DNA from: Candidatus Rokuibacteriota bacterium
GTDB lineage: Bacteria; Methylomirabilota; Methylomirabilia; Rokubacteriales; CSP1-6
NCBI GenBank assembly: GCA_030647435.1
Contig: JAUSJX010000008.1
Coordinates: 1-64,000 of the forward strand
DNA length: 64,000 nt
Reading direction: 5' to 3'
Within the stretch, counting starts at the first letter, position 1, and the number at the start of each line of letters is the position of its first letter. Both the position numbers and the translations under genes were made by a program. Below, one piece after another: positions 12,922 to 43,529 of this stretch. The notes below the pieces were generated by a model that was given only the letters and a program-made list of their open reading frames with translations, ran no database searches and was not told where the DNA came from.

Positions 12922-14277
12922 TCATCCCGTTCCCACGGCTCGCGCGGCCAGGGGATGCAGGACGTCGATCGCCCAGCCCAGATCCAGACGCTCCCCGAGC
13001 CAGCCCGGGCACGCCGTCCGCGCGTGGAGGCGGAGCCCCTGCGCGTCGTGCTGTGCCCGGAGGGCCTGAACCGGATCGACGGGCATCGCGACTGGCGGCG
13101 GGACCTCGGGCAAGGGCCGGCCGTTCGGCCGGCGGAACCGGAGCGCGCCGTCGGGCTGTCGATCGACCTGGTAGCCCTCCTCGTGGACCGCGCGGTGGTG
13201 CCGGCGACAGAGCAAGGCGAGGTTCGAGAGCGTGGTGGGGCCGCCTTGGGCCCAGTGGCGGACGTGATGCCCCTGGCCGAACGGGAGCCCGCAGCCCGGG
13301 AAGCGGCAGCCCCGGTCCCGGTGGAGGAGCGCTCGCCGCAACGCCGGGGGGATCGTCCGGGTCCGGGCCCCAATTTCCACGAGGCGCCCGTCCTGATCGT
13401 GCCGCATCACCACCCGGCTCGCGTCGCACGCCAGACGCCGCGACGTTTCCGCGGAAACGTGCGCCCCGTCCTCGAGAACGGACTGGCCGGGCTGATCCGG
13501 GTCCGCGAGCGCCGGGGCATCGACATGGACCACCACCTGGTACCGCTCTCCCGGCGCGCCGGGATCGATCCCGTGGTGGAGGGCCGTCTCCGCGAGCAGG
13601 GCCAGCGCGTCCGCCTGCTGCTGGGCCATGGTCGGGGCGTCCGCGGACGCGTCAGCCGGGCGGGTGGCCGCCCCCTCACCCCGCGCCCGCTGGTACAGCG
13701 TCTCGCGGGCGGCTGCCAATGCCCGCAGGAGCAGTGCCCCTACCTCCGGCGCGAGCCGCCCTCGAAGCACCACCGTGCCGTCCTCGTCCTCGTAAACGTG
13801 AAGCGCCCGGCTCGCGTGCTGCCGCGCGGTCTCCCGGGCCTCGGCCTGCCGGTCCACGCGGCGCCAGCCCCGCACGATCCGCTCGACGTGGGCGGCCGTG
13901 CCGGCCAGCCCGACCCCCAGCAGCCTCTCTTCCGTTTCCGGCGTGGCGACCCGGGTCAGGGCCCGGACCTTGGCGTACGAGAGTTCCCCGCGGGCGAGGG
14001 CCTGGGCCAGGAGCGGCAGCGTCCCGAGCGCGCGCGCCACGCGGACCTTCTCCCGGGCGGCACCGAGGTCGAGCCCCACCCGCCAGCTCAGCCAAGCGGC
14101 GCAGGAGCGGAATCCGGTGTTCCAGCCCCCTCGGGCGTTGAACTCGCGGATCAGGTCGAGGAGGCGCGCGGTGGCGGCCTCGAGGTGCGCCGACAGCTCG
14201 GCGATCTCGTCGCCCAGCCGGTCCAGGTTCGCGACGGGCTCCAGGGTAGCGGGGATGTCTGGCGAGTGGATCTCCAT
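12922..14277 (-). CDS. DUF222 and HNH endonuclease protein (13E12-repeat type)
   Basis: 451 residues. The N-terminal about 300 residues form the DUF222 helical domain (for example SAAAWLSWR-like CAAWLSWRVGLDLG, then a long ALARGELSYAKVRALTRVA stretch). The C-terminus has an HNH motif: RGCRFPGCG (zinc cysteines), HHVRHWAQGG, then LLCRRHHRAVHE. Such proteins are frequent, often multicopy, nucleases of uncertain role and may behave as mobile homing-like genes. Here it sits between the restriction and modification genes, same strand, with 78 bp to vapB and 199 bp from the restriction gene. GC is higher than in its neighbours, suggesting separate arrival. Confidence 0.88.
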   Translation of the reverse strand: MEIHSPDIPATLEPVANLDRLGDEIAELSAHLEAATARLLDLIREFNARGGWNTGFRSCAAWLSWRVGLDLGAAREKVRVARALGTLPLLAQALARGELSYAKVRALTRVATPETEERLLGVGLAGTAAHVERIVRGWRRVDRQAEARETARQHASRALHVYEDEDGTVVLRGRLAPEVGALLLRALAAARETLYQRARGEGAATRPADASADAPTMAQQQADALALLAETALHHGIDPGAPGERYQVVVHVDAPALADPDQPGQSVLEDGAHVSAETSRRLACDASRVVMRHDQDGRLVEIGARTRTIPPALRRALLHRDRGCRFPGCGLPFGQGHHVRHWAQGGPTTLSNLALLCRRHHRAVHEEGYQVDRQPDGALRFRRPNGRPLPEVPPPVAMPVDPVQALRAQHDAQGLRLHARTACPGWLGERLDLGWAIDVLHPLAARAVGTG

Positions 14278-14476: not shown

Positions 14477-17400
14477 TCAAGCGGAAAATGCAGGCGGCAC
14501 GCCGCCGGCCCGGGCGATCATCTCGTCGAAGGCGCTCTCCACCTTCGCCTTGAAGTCGGATTCGATCTGGTAGATCTCGGTGAGCTCGGCGAACGCCCAG
14601 CGGCCGAGCGTGCCGAGGTTGTTGACGGCAGGCACCCAGTACGTGTCCATCGTGGCCTTCTTCTCCTTCGCGTCCTCGCGCCGGTAGCCCTTGATCTCGA
14701 CGACAAGGTGCAGCAGGTCGTCGTCACCACGCCCGTCGTCCACCAGCACGATGAAGTCGGGGAGATAGCGCCGCATCTCGGAGCCGTAACGGTACGGCAC
14801 CTCGAGGCCGAGGTTGTGGTTCTTCACGTACGCCTTGACCCTGGGATGCGACTCGGCTACGCGGCAGAACTCGGCCTCCCAGTCGCTGTCCAGCACTACC
14901 CAGCTCACGTGGCAGCGCGCGGGGTCCGTCTGCCAGCGGTGCGTCCTGGACGTGTTGAAGCGGACGTGCGCGGTAGAGCCCACCGGGTTGTACGAGTCGA
15001 GCACCGCCTTGATTGGGCGCTCGCCCGCGAACGCGGCCGTGATTCCCGCGGTGATGCGGTTGCACGCCATGTCCGCGAGCTCCTGGTATATGAGCTGCGC
15101 CGGGTAGGTGCCGCCCTCGCACACGAGGTGGTTGTCGAGCCACTCCCTGGTGACGCGCTTGAGCTGGCCGAACAGGTGTAGTTTGGGCGCCTCCCCCGCG
15201 TCGCGCCACTTGGTGTAAAGCAGGCGCTGGGTGAGGTGGAAGAGCAGCGTGGACGGCCGCATGTCCCCGAGATGCTCCAGGGTCAGGTTCACCCCCTCGC
15301 CGACGATGCCCTGGTTCCGCGTGATGGACGGGCCGACGAGGTCGGGGGTGAGCACGAGCGTCGAGTCGTCGTTGAACGTGGCCGTCAGCCGCTCCTCGGG
15401 CAGCTCCACGCGATAGCCCGCGACACGCGGGAAACGGATCTCGAGCGCGTCGCGCTCGGGGCGCACGGCCTGGACCTGAACCGTCTCGCGGGGCGGCTGC
15501 GGCGGCGCGACGACCGGCTTCGCAGTGAAGTCGAAGGGGATGCCGAGCACGTCGGCGTACTCCACGTTGAACAGCCCCTTGTCGGGCCCGTCCTCGTTCA
15601 GGTCGTACGATTGCCGGCGCAGCGCGCGCCCGATCACCTGCTCGCACAGGAGCTGCGTGCCGAAAGCACGCACGCCGAGCACGTGGGTCACCGTGTTGGC
15701 GTCCCAGCCCTCGGTAAGCATGGCCACGGAGACCACGCAGCGGATGGAGCCGCCCAACTGACCGCGCTTGCCAACCGTGTTCATCACCTCGCGGAGCAGC
15801 GTCACGTCGTCGATCTCCTTGCCCTTCTGCAGCTCACCGGCGAGCGCGCCGCCGCGCTCGATGATCTCGCGGCGGAAGCGGTCGATCTCGTCGGCCGCCA
15901 TGCGGCGGAAGTCGTCGTCGAGCGCCTCGCCGCTCTCGAGCTGCTCGCTGTCGATGAGGATCGTGTGGGGCCGAGCGAGCGGGTTCCCGTATTCGTCGTC
16001 GAAGTTGCGGAAGAGGGCGAGGCGGCCGTTCTCCAGCGTGCTGGAACCGTCGTCGTTCTGCCGGTGAAAGCCGGAGACGAAGTCGTAGACTAGCTTGGAG
16101 GTTGACGTGTTATTGCAGACGATGATGAAGCAAGGAGGCACCGAGACCCGCCGCTCCTTCCACAGCTTGAACGTCTTCTCGTAGTGGCCGTAGAGCGCCT
16201 GGAGCGCCGTCTGGAGCCGGGTGGGAAGGGCGAGGGGATCGAGCCCCTCGGCCTTGCCGCGTCCCTTCTTTGGCATGTCTTTGCGGATGTTCTCCCACAG
16301 GTTGCGGAACATGGGCATGTCGTCGCCGGGGATGTTCTCGGCCACGGGGACGCGCGGCAGCTTCACGATGCCGCACTCGATGGCATCCATGAGCGAGAAG
16401 TCGCTCATCGTCCACGGAAAGAGCGTTCCCTCAGCGTATCCCGACCCGCGCAGGAAGAAAGGGGTCGCGGAGAGATCGATCACGCGCGCGAGCCCGAGCT
16501 TGCGATTCACCGTCTCCAGGCCGGAGATCCAGAGGCGGGCGGCCTCGTTGTTTCTCTCGGCCTCCTTTCGCTCGTCACCTTTCAGGTCATCGTCCCCGTC
16601 CTCGTCGCGCGGCTTCTCTCGGTAGCAGTGGTGCGCCTCGTCGTTGAGGACGAGAATGTTCTTCAGCCCCATCAGCTCCGGCATGACGCGCTGGAGCATC
16701 TGCCCTTCGGTCTCGAGCGTGTCCAGACCGTCGCCGACGCGCCCCTGGAGCAACGCGCGCCCGCCCTTCGAAAGCTCCACATGCTCGCGGCGCTTGAAGG
16801 CGTGGTAGTTGGTGATGACGATCTTGGCGCGGTTGACGTCGTCCAGCATGTCGCCCGGCACCAGCTCGCGGTCGGCATAGTAGCTGTCCGGGTCGTTCGG
16901 CTGGAGGACGCGCAGGCGATCCTTGATCGTGATCCCCGGTGTGACGACGAGAAAGCCGCGGGTGAAGCGCTTGCTCTGTGGCCGCCGGACGGCGTTGACG
17001 GTCTGCCAGGCGATGAGCATGGCCATGACCGTCGTCTTTCCCGCACCCGTGGCGAGCTTGAGCGCGAGGCGCATGAGCTCCGGGTTGGCGTCATTGTTCG
17101 CGTTCGCCAGGTGCTCGAGGAACCCTTTCCCCTGCCTCTCGTTCGGCGCCACCTCGGTGAGCCAGATCGCGGTCTCGACCGCCTCAATCTGGCAGAAGAA
17201 GGGGCGGACCCCGGTGAACTCGTGGTGTCGCCAGTGCTGGAGCAGCCGCGCCGTCTCCGGCGTCACCCCCCACGCGCTCGAGTTGTTGATGCCGCGCCAC
17301 TGGTCGACGCGGAGGCGCAGCGCGTTGATGATCGGGGTCGGGTCGTACTGCTGCTTGGCGGTCGAGACGCCTGCCCCCTCGTCGAACACCAACCGCTCCT

Positions 17401-17587
17401 GCCCTGCACTTCGCTTGTGCTTCTTCGGCCTGGGGATGGGCGTGATGAACTGGGCCGTGCGACGCGTCTCGATGATCTCCCCGGTGGGCTGTCCCTGGGC
17501 GTCTAGCTCCCAGTAGCGCGCCGGGTACGCGTAGGGGGAGTTGAGGATCGGCCGTTCGAAGAACCGGTTATCCATGGTCAGAATCAA
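14477..17587 (-). CDS. Type III-like restriction subunit (BPTD_3080-type DEAD/DEAH translocase-nuclease)
   Basis: 1036 residues; ATG at 17587, with another ATG five codons in. The opening (NRFFERPILNSPY) recalls the BPTD_3080 restriction endonuclease family. SF2 motor motifs are Walker A ATGAGKTT at 179-186, a DEAH box in LNDEAHHCY, motif III DLSATPF and motif VI QVIGRALRR. A PD-(D/E)XK nuclease ends the protein: P943-D944 and E964-I-K966 (VVEIKGY). It should cut unmodified DNA together with the methyltransferase at 9642-12431, from which it is separated by the HNH and VapB genes. Transcribed leftward; the 300 bp upstream holds only small hairpins. Confidence 0.88.
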   Translation of the reverse strand: MILTMDNRFFERPILNSPYAYPARYWELDAQGQPTGEIIETRRTAQFITPIPRPKKHKRSAGQERLVFDEGAGVSTAKQQYDPTPIINALRLRVDQWRGINNSSAWGVTPETARLLQHWRHHEFTGVRPFFCQIEAVETAIWLTEVAPNERQGKGFLEHLANANNDANPELMRLALKLATGAGKTTVMAMLIAWQTVNAVRRPQSKRFTRGFLVVTPGITIKDRLRVLQPNDPDSYYADRELVPGDMLDDVNRAKIVITNYHAFKRREHVELSKGGRALLQGRVGDGLDTLETEGQMLQRVMPELMGLKNILVLNDEAHHCYREKPRDEDGDDDLKGDERKEAERNNEAARLWISGLETVNRKLGLARVIDLSATPFFLRGSGYAEGTLFPWTMSDFSLMDAIECGIVKLPRVPVAENIPGDDMPMFRNLWENIRKDMPKKGRGKAEGLDPLALPTRLQTALQALYGHYEKTFKLWKERRVSVPPCFIIVCNNTSTSKLVYDFVSGFHRQNDDGSSTLENGRLALFRNFDDEYGNPLARPHTILIDSEQLESGEALDDDFRRMAADEIDRFRREIIERGGALAGELQKGKEIDDVTLLREVMNTVGKRGQLGGSIRCVVSVAMLTEGWDANTVTHVLGVRAFGTQLLCEQVIGRALRRQSYDLNEDGPDKGLFNVEYADVLGIPFDFTAKPVVAPPQPPRETVQVQAVRPERDALEIRFPRVAGYRVELPEERLTATFNDDSTLVLTPDLVGPSITRNQGIVGEGVNLTLEHLGDMRPSTLLFHLTQRLLYTKWRDAGEAPKLHLFGQLKRVTREWLDNHLVCEGGTYPAQLIYQELADMACNRITAGITAAFAGERPIKAVLDSYNPVGSTAHVRFNTSRTHRWQTDPARCHVSWVVLDSDWEAEFCRVAESHPRVKAYVKNHNLGLEVPYRYGSEMRRYLPDFIVLVDDGRGDDDLLHLVVEIKGYRREDAKEKKATMDTYWVPAVNNLGTLGRWAFAELTEIYQIESDFKAKVESAFDEMIARAGGVPPAFSA

Positions 17588-17903: not shown

Positions 17904-18440
17904 GTGCATCTGGCCACACTTGCCCTTGCCTTGTCGCTCCTGGCCTCGCCGCTCGCCTCCGAAGGGCAGCAACCGGGGAAGGTCTATCGCGTCGGCATCC
18001 TCGCGGCGTCTCCCCCGGCTCACCAGGGTCCGCGGGCATCTGGGAGGCGCTTCTTCAGAGCCTGCGTGAGCTCGGGTACGTTGAAGGTCGCAACCTCACC
18101 ATTGAGGGCCATCGCCGCTAAGATAAGTGACCGGTCAACCACAGGCCCTTGGGGCCTCTCCCTCGTGGAGGCGCTACCGAGGGAGCTCGTCCGTAGTCGG
18201 CAACACCAGCTAGTGTGCATGTGATCCGTAACCCCGCGTTTCTATTCGAGACGCTGGCTCGGATCATCGAAGTTATCTTAGTGGCGATGCCATTGAGGGC
18301 CGGTATTCGCGGGGCCGGGACGGACGGCTCCCGGGGCTTGCCGCGGACCTCGTGCGGCTGAAAGTGGACGTCATCGTCGCGCCCTCCACGCCTCCGGTCC
18401 GTGGCGCTGGATGCCCGACTCAAGGCCTTGGCCTCACTCT
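17904..18440 (+). pseudogene. PF04392-type ABC substrate-binding protein, frameshifted and interrupted
   Basis: The lipoprotein/secretion-like start (LATLALALSLLASPLASEGQQ, then KVYRVGILAA) is in one frame. LLQSLRELGYVEGRNLTIEG is in another, after a frameshift near 18035. LPGLAADLVRLKVDVIVAP continues only after a 191-bp insertion. Removing one copy of the flanking duplication plus the insert restores the reading frame exactly. Similarity stops near 18410, so the C-terminal two thirds are lost. The family has several intact members at 37870-43529. Not functional. Confidence 0.8.
18099..18301. mobile_element. MITE-like insertion (about 180 bp) with 17-bp inverted repeats and target duplication
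   Basis: The ends are CATCGCCGCTAAGATAA (18110-18126) and its complement with one mismatch (TTATCTTAGTGGCGATG, 18273-18289). A direct repeat CCATTGAGGGCC flanks the element at 18099-18110 and 18290-18301 (11 or 12 bp, depending on which side the shared C is assigned). The inside has no reading frame of note, only a small AGGCCC/GGGCCT hairpin. Deleting 191 bp rebuilds the host gene's LTIEGR...LPGLAADL reading frame, direct evidence for an insertion. The transposase that moved it is not in the window and the family is not recognised. Confidence 0.8.
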
Positions 18441-18539: not shown

Positions 18540-18926
18540 GTGGGTAAAGACAAAGTTCGCCTAAAGAAAACGTCAGCTCAGCGCATCGTGCATGACATGT
18601 TCACAAAGCTCGCGCCGACTCTGCGCGTCCTTCGAAGCAAACAGCAGTTGTCGTTGCGGAATGTTGCTGACGCCGCCGGGATCACCCCAGGGTATCTCAG
18701 TCTGATCGAGCGCGGGGCTGCGGTGCCGTCCGTCGTCGCGCTTGAACAGATTGCGAACGCGCTCGGCGTATCACTGGCGCAGTTCTTCCAAGACGGGCGC
18801 GTCGCAAACGAAGCGCCGCGATATGTGGTTCGCCCCCACGAGCGCCGCGTGATGGTGTACCCCGATACCGACATTCGCCACGAACTGTTGGTCCCCGATT
18901 TTCGGCGGCCGCGGGCAACCGGATGA
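18540..18926 (+). CDS. XRE-family transcriptional regulator, C-terminally truncated
   Basis: 128 residues. A Cro/CI helix-turn-helix spans about 27-82 (LRVLRSKQQLSLRNVADAAG, then TPGYLSLIERG and VVALEQIANALG). What follows (YVVRPHERR, then DIRHELLVPD) is the beginning of the sensor/cupin domain common in XRE-cupin regulators of about 190 residues, but the frame ends after FRRPRATG. The break coincides with the end of a DruA-like fragment on the other strand (about 18905), so the cupin was lost when foreign DNA joined here. Start is a GTG at 18540. Possibly still DNA-binding; could equally be called a pseudogene. Confidence 0.75.
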   Translation: MGKDKVRLKKTSAQRIVHDMFTKLAPTLRVLRSKQQLSLRNVADAAGITPGYLSLIERGAAVPSVVALEQIANALGVSLAQFFQDGRVANEAPRYVVRPHERRVMVYPDTDIRHELLVPDFRRPRATG

Positions 18927-37870: not shown

Positions 37871-38850
37871 TGGACCGCCGCGCGTTCCTAGGCCTCGCGG
37901 CAACCGGCGTGGTCGCGGCGCCCGGTGTCGCCCGCGCTCAACAGGCGGGCAAGGCCCACCGCATCGGCTTCCTGTCCCTGGGATCCGGCCCGGCCGCCCC
38001 GGTTGAGGCCTTTCGCGAGGGGCTGCGCGAGCTGGGCTATGTCGAAGGGCGCAACCTCACCATCGAGTACCGATGGGCGGCAGGCAAGGCGGGGCGCCTG
38101 CCGGAGATGGCGGCAGAGCTCGTGCGGCTCAAGGTGGAGGTCATCGTCGGGGTTACGACGCCGGTCATCGAGGCAGCCAAGCGCGCGACCAGTACCATCC
38201 CCATCGTCATGGCGGCGGTGGCCGATCCCGTCGGCAGCGGCCTCGTCGCCGGCCTCGCCCGCCCGGGCGGCAATGTCACGGGCCTGACCCTGATGTCCAC
38301 CGAGCTCGTCGGCAAGCGGCTCCAGCTGGTGCGCGAGCTCCTCCCCAAGGCCACGCGGGTTGCGGTGCTCTCCTACCACGGTTATACCTCCGCCACGAGG
38401 CCCTACCTCGAGCAGATGCGGGCCGCGGCGCAGCAGATGGGGATCCAACTCGTCGTCCAAGAAGTGAACGAGGCTAGGGACCTGCCCGACGCCTTCACCG
38501 CCATGCAGCGCGAGCGGGCCCAGGCGCTCGACGTGCGGGCCAGCCCGTTCAGCACTGAAAACGCCAAGCGCATCGTGGAGCTGGCGGCGCAGCACCGCCT
38601 GCCCGCCATGTACGACGTTCGAAGCTTCGTGGAAGCGGGCGGGCTCGTCTCCTATGGGCCGAGCGGCCTCGAGATATTCCGCCGGGCCGCCTTCTACGTG
38701 GACAGGATCCTCAAGGGCGCCAAGCCCGCCGACCTGCCGATCGAGCAGCCCACGAAGTTCGAGCTGGTCATCAACCTGAGGGCGGCGAGGGCGCTCGGCC
38801 TGACCATCCCGCCGGCCCTGCTGGCGCGCGCGGACCAGGTGATCCAGTGA
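37870..38850 (+). CDS. ABC-type substrate-binding protein (PF04392), orphan copy 1
   Basis: 326 residues. A twin-arginine-like signal (MDRRAFLGLAATG, cleavage after ARA) precedes the family core: ELGYVEGRNLTIEYRWA, LVRLKVEVIV, TIPIVMAAVADPVGSGLV and LARPGGNVTG. The closing RILKGAKPADLPIEQPTKFE then ADQVIQ recurs in the next copies. The ATG shares one base with the prpF stop (TGATG). No permease or ATPase of this type is adjacent. Ligand unknown; relatives are often called sugar- or tryptophan-binding. Confidence 0.9.
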   Translation: MDRRAFLGLAATGVVAAPGVARAQQAGKAHRIGFLSLGSGPAAPVEAFREGLRELGYVEGRNLTIEYRWAAGKAGRLPEMAAELVRLKVEVIVGVTTPVIEAAKRATSTIPIVMAAVADPVGSGLVAGLARPGGNVTGLTLMSTELVGKRLQLVRELLPKATRVAVLSYHGYTSATRPYLEQMRAAAQQMGIQLVVQEVNEARDLPDAFTAMQRERAQALDVRASPFSTENAKRIVELAAQHRLPAMYDVRSFVEAGGLVSYGPSGLEIFRRAAFYVDRILKGAKPADLPIEQPTKFELVINLRAARALGLTIPPALLARADQVIQ

Positions 38851-39863
38851 TGGACCGGCGGGCATTCCTTGCTGGCACGGGTGCGGTGCTCCTTGCTGCG
38901 CCCCGCGCCGCCGAGGCGCAGAAGTCAGAGAAGAAGGCTCGCGTGGGAATTCTTGGCATCGGTCCAGCTCCGAGCCCACAGGAGCTGGCGAAGTCAGTCT
39001 CGACAAACCCGTTCTGGCTGTCGATGAGACAGCTCGGCTGGGTCGATGGCCAAAACATGGTCGTCGAGCGACGGTTCGGCGAATCAGCCGATCAGCTTCG
39101 CACAGGCGCCGCTGACCTCGTGCGCCTCAAGGTCGACGTACTGTTCGTTTCGGGCGCGGGCCTGGCAAAGATCCTTCAACTGGAAACGAAAACCATCCCC
39201 ATCGTGGTCGGTCGCGCCGACAATGATCTTGTTGCCGCAGGACTCGTCGACAGCCTCGCAAGGCCTGGGGGCAATATCACAGGGTCACAGCTCCTCAACG
39301 ATGATCTCATCCCAAAGCGTCTCGAGCTTCTCAAAGCGCTTGTACCGAATCTCTCAAAGGTCGCGCTCCTTCGAGAGGATGTCACAACCTCGGCACTCCC
39401 CCAGATACGCGCTCGGTTCGATGAACAGGTCGCGATCGCGGCTCGGAGCCTCGGCATAGAGGTTCATACGTTCATCGTGCGCCGAGCGGGGGACTTGGCT
39501 GCCGCTTTCCTCGGCATGAAGAAGAATCACGACCAGGGTGTAGTGGTGACGTCGCCAGCGTTTATGTTCGTGCATAGAAAGGCCATCGTCGATCTTGCGG
39601 CCGCGCATCGGATCGCCGCAGTCTATGACCTCCAGGTGTTTGTTGAGCCAGGTGGGCTCATGTCCTATGGAGTAAATGTTGCCGAGATGCAGCGACGTGC
39701 TGCGGTCTACGTGGACAAGATCCTCAAGGGGGCCAAGCCCGCCGACCTGCCTATCGAGCAGCCGACGAAGTTCGAACTGGTCATCAACCTCAAGACGGCG
39801 AAGGCGCTCGGCCTCACCGTCCCGCAGTCTCTGCTTTCGCGTGCCGATCAGGTGATCCAGTGA
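38850..39863 (+). CDS. ABC-type substrate-binding protein (PF04392), orphan copy 2
   Basis: 337 residues from the ATG in TGATGGACCGG, one base shared with the previous stop; an in-frame GTG at 38847 is less likely. Signal MDRRAFLAGTGAVLLAAPRA. The middle (for example ASRSLGIEVHTFIVRRAG-like stretch) is clearly diverged from copy 1, yet the end is almost identical, so the copies recombine or are conserved at the C-terminus. Tandem with copies 1 and 3. Confidence 0.9.
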   Translation: MDRRAFLAGTGAVLLAAPRAAEAQKSEKKARVGILGIGPAPSPQELAKSVSTNPFWLSMRQLGWVDGQNMVVERRFGESADQLRTGAADLVRLKVDVLFVSGAGLAKILQLETKTIPIVVGRADNDLVAAGLVDSLARPGGNITGSQLLNDDLIPKRLELLKALVPNLSKVALLREDVTTSALPQIRARFDEQVAIAARSLGIEVHTFIVRRAGDLAAAFLGMKKNHDQGVVVTSPAFMFVHRKAIVDLAAAHRIAAVYDLQVFVEPGGLMSYGVNVAEMQRRAAVYVDKILKGAKPADLPIEQPTKFELVINLKTAKALGLTVPQSLLSRADQVIQ

Positions 39864-40861
39864 TGGACCGCCGCGCGGTGCCCGGCTGTGCCGCCGCTGT
39901 TGTCGTCGCCGTCGTAGTCGCCTGCGGGTTCAGCTACGCGGCAGGGCAGTCGCGCGAATCCATGCCCCGCGTCGGCATGCTCACGCCGGCCCCGTCTGCG
40001 ACAGCGAAGCCGTTGTGGGATGCGTTCCGCGAGGCGATGAAGGAGCTCGGCTATGTCGAGGGGAAGAGCGTCGTCTACGAGTACCGGTCGGCGGAAGGAC
40101 AGCTCGATCGGCTCCCTCAACTGGCAGCCGAGCTGGTCAAGCTTCCGGTGAAGGTCATGGTGGTCGCGAACACTCCGGGCAACCTCGCGGCCAAGAATGC
40201 TACCGCGACCATACCCATCGTCATGGTGGGGGTCGGAGACCCCGTGCGGGTGGGGCTCGTCTCCAACCTGGGGAGGCCGGGCGGGAACATCACGGGGTTC
40301 ACCACCCTCACCGGCCCGCTCACCGCCAAGCGGCTCCAGCTCCTCAAGGAGCTGGTCCCGACCGCCACACGCATCGGGCTCATCGGCAACCCCGGCGTCC
40401 CCAACACGCTGATCCAGATCCAGGACGCCGAGGCCGCCGCCCGTGAGTTGAAGGTTCAGCTCCGCGTCTTCACGGTCGAGGAAGCGGCGCAGCTCGAGCC
40501 CGCCTTCGAGGCGGCGCGGGGCTGGCGAGCTCAGGCCCTGATGCGCCTGGCCGAGCCGCTCCAGGCTTCCCTTCGGGCGCGGACGATCGAGCTTGCCGCC
40601 AAGACCCGGATCCCTGTGATGTACACGTCCCGGGCCGACGTGGAGGCGGGCGGGCTCATAGGGTATGGGGTCGAGCCCGTCGACACCTACAAGCGTGCCG
40701 CCGCCTACGTGGACAGGATCCTCAAGGGCGCTAAGCCCGGCGAGCTCCCCGTTCAGCAGCCCACGAAGCTGGAGCTTGGCGTCAACCTGAAGACCGCCGC
40801 GGCCCTGAACATCAAGATCCCTCAAGCCATTCTCGCGCGGGCCGACCAGGTGATCCAGTGA
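39863..40861 (+). CDS. ABC-type substrate-binding protein (PF04392), orphan copy 3
   Basis: 332 residues from the ATG at 39863 (again TGATGGACC). The signal segment (AAVVVAVVVACGFSYAAG) contains a Cys that could make it a lipoprotein, unlike the other copies. Core motifs ELGYVEGKSVVYEYRSAEG, TIPIVMVGVGDPV and RPGGNITGF are present, with the ending RILKGAKPGELPVQQPTKLE then ADQVIQ. Stop overlaps the start of the acyl-CoA synthetase (GTGA). Confidence 0.9.
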   Translation: MDRRAVPGCAAAVVVAVVVACGFSYAAGQSRESMPRVGMLTPAPSATAKPLWDAFREAMKELGYVEGKSVVYEYRSAEGQLDRLPQLAAELVKLPVKVMVVANTPGNLAAKNATATIPIVMVGVGDPVRVGLVSNLGRPGGNITGFTTLTGPLTAKRLQLLKELVPTATRIGLIGNPGVPNTLIQIQDAEAAARELKVQLRVFTVEEAAQLEPAFEAARGWRAQALMRLAEPLQASLRARTIELAAKTRIPVMYTSRADVEAGGLIGYGVEPVDTYKRAAAYVDRILKGAKPGELPVQQPTKLELGVNLKTAAALNIKIPQAILARADQVIQ

Positions 40862-42501
40862 CGGCGCGGAACATGACCGACTACGCGGCGACGATGCGGG
40901 ACTTCCGCCTGGAAGTGCCCGCGCGCTTCAACTGGGCCTTCGACACCTTCGATGCGTGGGCGCGGGATCCCTCGAAGCTCGCGCTGCTCTGGGTGTCGGC
41001 CGACGGGCAGCCGCGGCGATTCACTTTCGCAGAGCTCGCCGAGCGCTCGAAGCGCTTCGCCAATGCGCTCGCGGGCCTCGGCGTCAAGCCTGGCGAGCGG
41101 GTCGTCGTCATGCTCCCGCGCGTCTATCAGTGGTGGGAGATCCTGCTGGGCTGCCTGCGCGCGCGCACCGTGTCCGTTCCCGGCACCACGCTCCTCACCA
41201 CCAAGGACATCACCTATCGCCTCCAGGCCGCCGAGGCGAGCGTGGTCATCACCGACGAGGACAACACGCACAAGGTGGACCAGGTCCTGCTCGAGTGCCC
41301 GACGGTGAAGCACCGGATCGTGCTGGGGCGTGCAGGCGGAGGCTGGCAGGAGTACGAGCGACTGATGGGCCTCGCCTCGTCCGAAATGGCGCACCCGAGA
41401 AACGCGAGCGGCGACCCGATGATGGTCTACTTCACCTCGGGGACGACCGGCTTCCCGAAGATGGTGCTGCATACCCACGCGTCTTACCCCATCGGCCACA
41501 TCATCACGGGCAAGTTCTGGCTCGACAACACGCCAGAGGACCTGCACTGGACGATCTCGGACACGGGCTGGGCCCAGGCCGCGTGGACTTCCTTCTTCGC
41601 GCCCTGGAACATGGGCGCGGCCATCTTCGTCTGGGACGCGCGCGGCAAGAAGTTCGACTCGCAGGAGACGCTCGCCATGTTCGAGCGCTTCCCCATCACG
41701 ACCTTCTTCGCGCCGCCGACGGCCTATCGCATGATGGTCCAGGAGCCGCTCCGCAAGTACCGTTACCCGACGCTGCGCCACTGCATGGGCGCGGGCGAGG
41801 CCGTCAACCCCGAGGTGATCGAGGCCTGGCGCGAGGGCACGGGGCATCACATCTACGAGGGCTACGGTCAGACCGAGAGTGTGCTGGTGGCCGCGACCTT
41901 CCCGGCCACGCCGTGGAAGCCCGGCTCCATGGGCCCGGCCGCGCCGGGGCACCATCTCGCCATCGTGGGCGAAGAAGGGCGCGAGCTGCCGCGCGGCGGG
42001 GAGGGCGACCTCGCCATCCGCGTGAAGCCGGAGCGGCCCGTGGGCATGTTCCAGGAGTACTGGAAGAACGCGGAGGCCACCGCGAAATGCCACCGCGGCG
42101 ACTGGTACATCACCGGCGACCGCGCGTCCATGGATGAGGAGGGCTATCTCTGGTTCGTCGGCCGCGCCGACGACGTGATCAACAGCGCGTCCTACCGCAT
42201 CGGGCCGTTCGAGGTGGAGTCGGCCCTGGTGGAGCACGCCGCCGTCGCCGAAGCCGCCGTCATCGGCAAGCCGGACGCGCTCCGCGGCGAGATCGTCAAG
42301 GCCTTCGTGGTTCTCGCCCCCGGTCACACCGCCTCCGACGCCCTCGCCACCGAGCTCCAGGAGCACGTCAAGACGGTGACCGCGCCCTACAAGTACCCGC
42401 GCGAGATCGAGTTCGTCGCCGACCTGCCCAAGACCATCAGCGGCAAGATCCGCCGCACCGAGCTCCGCCAGATGGAGCGCGACCGGAGCAAGCCGCGATG
42501 A
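40858..42501 (+). CDS. AMP-forming acyl-CoA synthetase, ACSM/benzoate-CoA-ligase-like
   Basis: 547 residues from GTG 40858. ATP-binding YFTSGTTGFPKMVLHTH, adenylate region YEGYGQTES, the hinge WYITGDRASMDEEGYLWFVG and the catalytic lysine in KTISGKIRRTE are all in order. Activates a carboxylic acid, probably medium-chain or aromatic, to its CoA thioester. Placed between two PF04392 binding proteins with 4-base overlaps on both sides, suggesting that the bound ligand is an acid activated here. Confidence 0.92.
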   Translation: MTARNMTDYAATMRDFRLEVPARFNWAFDTFDAWARDPSKLALLWVSADGQPRRFTFAELAERSKRFANALAGLGVKPGERVVVMLPRVYQWWEILLGCLRARTVSVPGTTLLTTKDITYRLQAAEASVVITDEDNTHKVDQVLLECPTVKHRIVLGRAGGGWQEYERLMGLASSEMAHPRNASGDPMMVYFTSGTTGFPKMVLHTHASYPIGHIITGKFWLDNTPEDLHWTISDTGWAQAAWTSFFAPWNMGAAIFVWDARGKKFDSQETLAMFERFPITTFFAPPTAYRMMVQEPLRKYRYPTLRHCMGAGEAVNPEVIEAWREGTGHHIYEGYGQTESVLVAATFPATPWKPGSMGPAAPGHHLAIVGEEGRELPRGGEGDLAIRVKPERPVGMFQEYWKNAEATAKCHRGDWYITGDRASMDEEGYLWFVGRADDVINSASYRIGPFEVESALVEHAAVAEAAVIGKPDALRGEIVKAFVVLAPGHTASDALATELQEHVKTVTAPYKYPREIEFVADLPKTISGKIRRTELRQMERDRSKPR

Positions 42502-42549
42502 CGCTCGCCCAGACTCCCTCTCCCTCGCTCTGGGAGAGGGCCGCGGTGA
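42492..42549. repeat. Palindromic element inside the start of a substrate-binding protein gene
   Basis: CCCTCTCCCTCGCTCTGGGAG then AGGGCC, a short member of the repeat family, lies between GCCGCGATGA (42492-42501) and GCCGCGGTGA (42540-42549), a direct repeat with one mismatch that duplicates the start-codon context. Confidence 0.6.
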
Positions 42550-43529
42550 GGGTGCCGAGACTGCTCCTACTCGCCCTCATCTTCCTCGCGGCACCCCTCG
42601 GCGCCGAGGCGCAGCAGGCGGGGAAGGTGTGGCGGATCGGCTACCTTCAGACGTCGCCGCGGGAGGCCCAGCTCCACCTGATTCAAGCCTTCGAGGGTGG
42701 CCTCCGCGAGAGGGGTTACACGCCCGGGCGCGACATCGTGATCGAGTACCGCTTCGCAGATGGACGCGTCGAGCGGCTCCCCGAGCTGGCGGCCGACCTG
42801 GTCCGGCTCAAGGTGGACGTGATCGTCACCGGAGTCAACCCCAATACTATCGCTGCCAAGAAGGCGACGACCACGATCCCCATCGTGATGGCCGGCTCGT
42901 ACAATCCGGTGGAAGATGGGCTTGTGGCGAGCCTGGCCCATCCTGGCGGGAACGTCACCGGCCTGACGCTGAATGCCGGCGCAGAGATCCAGACCAAGCG
43001 CCTGCAGCTTCTCAGAGAAATCAACCCCGAGCTCTCCCGCGTCGCCACCTTGTCGGGTATCGGCATGTCATACAACCCGTCTCAGGTGAGAGTCCTCGAG
43101 GATACGGGTCGCGGCTTGGGGATCACGATCCTGCCGGTCGAGTTCCGGGGGGCCGGCGATGTCGGAGATGCCTTCGCCAAAATCGGCCGTGCGCGGGTAG
43201 GTGGGCTCATCGTTTTTGGCGGCCCCCTCGTCCTCGAGCAGATGGCCAGAATCGCCAGCCTGGCGGTGAAGAGCCGACTCCCAGCCATCTTCAATGGCCG
43301 ACAATACGCCCGCGATGGGGGCCTCATGTCGTACGGTGCGGACATTGCTGATCAGTGGCGGCGTGCCGCAGGGTACGTTGACCGCATCCTGAAGGGCGCC
43401 AAGCCCGCCGACCTGCCCGTCGAGCAGCCCACCAAGTTCGAGTTGGTCATCAACCTCAAGACCGCGAAGGCGCTCGGGCTCACGATCCCGCAGTCGCTGC
43501 TGCTGCGCGCCGACGAGGTGATCCAATGA
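42498..43529 (+). CDS. ABC-type substrate-binding protein (PF04392), orphan copy 4
   Basis: 343 residues from ATG 42498 (ATGA overlap with the previous stop). The first 16 residues (MTLAQTPSPSLWERAA) are repeat-derived; the in-frame GTG at 42546 begins a normal signal peptide (VRVPRLLLLALIFLAAPLGA). Either start may be used. Core: ERGYTPGRDIVIEYRFADG, LVRLKVDVIVTG, HPGGNVTGLTL; end RILKGAKPADLPVEQPTKFE then ADEVIQ. Confidence 0.9.
   Translation: MTLAQTPSPSLWERAAVRVPRLLLLALIFLAAPLGAEAQQAGKVWRIGYLQTSPREAQLHLIQAFEGGLRERGYTPGRDIVIEYRFADGRVERLPELAADLVRLKVDVIVTGVNPNTIAAKKATTTIPIVMAGSYNPVEDGLVASLAHPGGNVTGLTLNAGAEIQTKRLQLLREINPELSRVATLSGIGMSYNPSQVRVLEDTGRGLGITILPVEFRGAGDVGDAFAKIGRARVGGLIVFGGPLVLEQMARIASLAVKSRLPAIFNGRQYARDGGLMSYGADIADQWRRAAGYVDRILKGAKPADLPVEQPTKFELVINLKTAKALGLTIPQSLLLRADEVIQ

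Follow-up and report, generated by a model that had tools for sequence, protein, structure and literature searches.

A 180-bp MITE with IS231-like ends in a Rokubacteria pseudogene and its probable mobilisation in trans by an IS4-family element

The window, by which we mean the whole 64,000-nucleotide stretch of DNA analysed, carries a 180-bp element at positions 18110-18289, inside a substrate-binding-protein pseudogene and between two exact copies of an 11-mer (Table 1). Its 17-nt terminal inverted repeats, CATCGCCGCTAAGATAA and TTATCTTAGTGGCGATG, are complementary at 16 of 17 positions, with one mismatch; at up to three mismatches the end pattern occurs three times in the window (two exact matches, one with three mismatches) against 0.08 expected, and is not due to chance. 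A direct repeat, CCATTGAGGGCC, stands at 18099-18110 and again at 18290-18301, a spacing of 191, such that C18110 is at once its twelfth base and the first base of the left inverted repeat; because other insertions give 11 bp, we take the target site duplication as exactly 11 bp, not 12. The earlier note had allowed 11-12 bp: the 11 bp stand, and the twelfth base proves to be the shared C of the left end. Reading frames across the element are broken by stops or amount to short run-throughs. Short (below about 500 bp), non-coding, bounded by terminal inverted repeats and flanked by an exact 11-bp duplication, the element has the form of a MITE.

Table 1. Features of the element and of its host pseudogene, in window coordinates.
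Feature	Position	Strand	Basis
Host pseudogene, 5' part; frameshift near 18036-18044	17904..18109	+	Paralog alignment
Left target site duplication copy, CCATTGAGGGC, centre TTGAG	18099..18109	.	Direct repeat
Left terminal inverted repeat, CATCGCCGCTAAGATAA	18110..18126	+	Exact matches in relatives
Left end common to the IS left end, 86% over 29 bp	18110..18138	+	Comparison with IS left end
Non-coding core, related to MITE copies in three other genomes (whole-element identity 69-75%)	18139..18267	.	
Right end common to IS right ends (CGAAGTTATCTTAG..., in which the transposase frame closes with KLS-stop)	18268..18289	+	
Right terminal inverted repeat, CATCGCCACTAAGATAA on the minus strand	18273..18289	-	
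Right target site duplication copy, CCATTGAGGGC	18290..18300	.	Direct repeat
Host pseudogene continuation past the element, truncated further downstream	18301..18405	+	Paralog alignment

That the element was inserted into the host gene is seen when 191 bp are taken out: the flanks then join, locally, into one frame, running ...RNLTIEG and on into RYSRGRDGRLPGLAADLVRLKVDVIVAP... The joined protein aligns straight across the insertion site, from residue 8-10 to residue 105-106, with paralogs on two contigs of the same genome (C35 and C104; 59-60% identity); we used this alignment since a Pfam search of the short joined fragment recognised no domain. The paralog search splits the locus in two places, at residues ~43-48, the frameshift, and at residues ~69-74, the element, and the 3' part of the gene is missing beyond about 18405. 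The claim that excision restores the host frame thus holds locally only: a working gene is not restored, as the separate frameshift and the 3' loss are also present. This further damage is unrelated to the element. Four more matches to the same substrate-binding-protein family lie within 5 kb at 37900-42842, and a 128-aa open reading frame just downstream of the pseudogene (18540-18926, plus strand) reads like a helix-turn-helix regulator.

Searching the genome with the 17-bp end, as the earlier note had proposed, gave one full copy and two single ends; end-like matches with three mismatches in this genome were set aside as background (19 matches in all, against 4 in the control). Across 57 genomes of the same family, ends at no more than one mismatch numbered 16 against 1 for a reversed-pattern control, and fell in 8 of the 57. 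Related MITE copies, 69-75% identical, stand at other sites in three of these relatives. The copy in G013 (75% identity) has a degraded left end; that in G021 (74%) measures 180 bp once a 100-base overlap is used to join contig ends. Contigs C274 and C213 of G021 have one exact 11-bp duplication, AGCCTTAAGGC, in common, and a further copy on contig C278 brings G021 to at least two. The copy in G044 (69%) is 177 bp long with an exact 11-bp duplication, ACGCTAAGCCC, and its left end is 96% identical to an IS left end over 25 bp. With these further copies the earlier note's picture of a cleanly delimited, non-autonomous MITE with 17-bp ends is borne out.

The same copies bear on whether the element might have arisen recently in its own genome by internal deletion of a single IS copy, with no established MITE lineage behind it. 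Such an origin would account for the single full copy in that genome and for the match of the outermost 22-29 bp to IS ends, but other genera have copies of near-equal length (177-180 bp) whose core is related; we consider it very unlikely, the shared core having largely refuted it.

The end sequence extends beyond the phylum. A 20-base end scanned against the GTDB contig collection found 23 stretches, mostly in one Elusimicrobia MAG (JACQPE01, here G099), the rest in Rokubacteria, one Gemmatimonadetes MAG and one Acidobacteria MAG. The 2.4-Mb Elusimicrobia MAG holds 36 ends at no more than two mismatches, against 0 in the control, and five complete short MITEs (69-251 bp), each with an 11-bp duplication; for a 361-bp end pair (L175) a matching duplication was not found. 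In Rickettsiales, Bacteroidia and two viral contigs (L056, L069, L165 and L166) the end matched exactly but singly, with no element structure seen, and these matches were judged to be chance.

In total, nine insertions have 11-bp duplications: seven two-ended elements on single contigs from two phyla (four exact duplications, three matching at 10 of 11 positions) and two cross-contig pairs, both exact. The flanking 11-mers have the form nSnYTNARnSn with a YTNAR-like centre. Without filtering, T stands at position 5 in 47 of 57 and A at position 7 in 49 of 57, where the 57 include both ends of some insertions; YTNAR occurs at the central offset in 23 of 37 hand-chosen insertions against an average of 0.7 after within-site shuffling, a choice that omitted matches judged doubtful, so that the unfiltered figures are the safer ones. 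Exact 11-bp duplications mark an insertion and largely refute a third reading, that the locus is no transposable element but a REP-like repeat or a structured regulatory RNA. The single-strand fold does reach a z of about -6, but this excess is mostly due to the paired ends, and the core by itself gives z = -2.5; the covariation term is unfavourable, with a double change in 2 of 47 pairs, and the only Rfam match lies outside the element and below threshold. We dropped this reading, whose probability we regard as negligible.

IS relics with the same ends were found in relatives, some of them with these ends next to transposase coding sequence. The fullest is a locus in G021 (L030, contig C147) that begins with the element's end, and in which a 409-aa frame on the other strand stops inside that end. 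Residues 139-303 of its protein match IS4-family transposases by two profiles, PF01609 (E = 1.6e-10, above cut-off) and NF033592 (E = 1.9e-21, short of the curated cut-off), and the protein carries YPARWRIERMYFDLK, read by eye as a Y(2)R(3)E(6)K (YREK) pattern; the profile match covers positions 60-199 of 200, and the relic is 5'-truncated, its N-terminal part missing. Together with L027 and L026 it makes three right-end relics in which the frame ends RLS-stop or KLS-stop inside the repeat (KLS-stop in L027 and L026), with 57% identity between L027 and L030 in the final 56 residues. Two left-end relics, L029 and L076, have the element's end followed by an ATG about 82 bp in. Each side of the MITE resembles the corresponding IS end, over 25-29 bp on the left and 22-31 bp on the right; the core (18139-18267) matched none of the IS pieces examined. 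Because the left-end and right-end relics come from different genomes, we infer, and do not observe, that they belong to one IS. The earlier note had let its case hang on there being a second copy or matching IS ends in related genomes, and both are present. Three of the left ends (L029, L076 and L070, in Rokubacteria, Acidobacteria and Gemmatimonadetes MAGs) are 92-95% identical to one another over 55-117 bp, which suggests recent cross-phylum transfer or a binning error.

A search for an intact IS with both ends in 95 genomes of the phylum, 396 of Acidobacteriota, 395 of Gemmatimonadota, plasmids and viral contigs found none; within the element's own genome, none of the DDE_Tnp_1 loci inspected (5 of 9 matches) has the element's ends nearby. 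The intact IS is likely missing through loss of multi-copy contigs from MAG bins. A tblastn search of the plasmid collection with the relic protein of L030 gave no match at E <= 1e-5, which hints at some distance between this protein and IS231 transposases. It could be argued from the lack of an intact IS4 copy with both ends that the MITE had a partner from another transposase family, the end having come to lie on IS4 relics by chance or by nested insertion. We think this improbable, given three separate right-end relics whose transposase frame ends inside the repeat, and an end signature and duplication length that fit IS4/IS231.

The earlier note had found no recognised element to match these ends; they can now be assigned to the IS4 family, with a signature of the IS231 type. 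Ends of the IS231 subgroup read CAT-------AA--TAA---, with duplications of 10-12 bp (De Palmenaer et al. 2008, PMC2266710 Table 1), and CATCGCCGCTAAGATAACTT fits this signature at all eight fixed positions. The 11-bp duplication falls within that range and is about one helix turn, as for the IS4 family, and the linked transposase relic has the YREK motif; judged by ends and duplication, the element appears IS231-like. It differs in its hosts, here Rokubacteria and Elusimicrobia, whereas IS231 was almost confined to the Bacillus cereus group in a 2008 survey (De Palmenaer et al. 2008, PMC2266710). The ISH8 subgroup, which has 10-bp duplications and no apparent target specificity (PMC2266710), resembles the element in its CAT end and the T at position 15, but an 11-bp duplication and a clear motif are seen here, and ISH8 fits less well than IS231. 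MITEs mobilised in trans by an IS are a well-known kind of object. The target of IS231 is GGGNNNNNCCC, in contrast to the nSnYTNARnSn of the present insertions. Like mobile insertion cassettes such as MIC231 of B. cereus (as cited in PMC6542083), MITEs have IS ends, lack a transposase and need one in trans; the window element differs from the cassettes in being 180 bp long with no passenger gene.

We conclude that the MITE was very probably mobilised in trans by an IS231-like element of the IS4 family. The element has no gene of its own, and an IS4-family DDE transposase would have come from elsewhere in the cell, encoded by a full-length IS that shares these ends. After binding at the two 17-20 bp ends, this enzyme would excise the element and insert it at a target cut with an 11-bp stagger (nSnYTNARnSn), repair leaving the 11-bp duplication; the landing site here was a substrate-binding-protein paralog, perhaps already decaying. 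Mobilisation in trans, the cut-and-paste chemistry and the one-time presence of the partner IS in the lineage are what we infer from these ends and relics.

Next to the two single ends of this genome, at C37:1491-1507 and C136:4767-4783, stand GGAGTTAGTCG and its exact reverse complement (11 bp), in the arrangement expected if they flanked one insertion, and DUF222-HNH endonuclease genes lie just inside both ends (L156, G000:C37 1-1518, and L155, G000:C136 3341-4794). Read this way, the pair may be a passenger-gene cassette with the same ends; a rearrangement or misassembly is also possible, because the two HNH genes are only 84% identical and C136 runs on into chromosomal genes. Terminal inverted repeats at the other DUF222-HNH copies were none better than in shuffled sequence. 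The window has its own DUF222-HNH gene (12922-14277, minus strand, with its upstream region to 14534), which follows a 1036-aa open reading frame (14477-17587, minus strand) that reads like a restriction helicase subunit; its upstream 210-255 bp recur with the gene, with ten matches in this genome and further ones in relatives, at 66-74% identity apart from the query.

More tentatively, and with rather less than even confidence, one IS231-like transposase lineage beyond Bacillus, shared by Rokubacteria, Elusimicrobia, Acidobacteria and Gemmatimonadetes, might mobilise both MITEs and larger passenger-gene cassettes in trans; if so, one cassette in the own genome would hold a DUF222-HNH endonuclease, bounded by these ends and by an exact 11-bp duplication. 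The multi-copy parent IS is often missing from MAG bins, and the 17-20 bp end can serve as a probe when MAGs are searched for non-autonomous elements. Ends that had earlier been unplaced now have a family and a target-site motif, and IS231-type ends are placed in uncultured groundwater and soil phyla.
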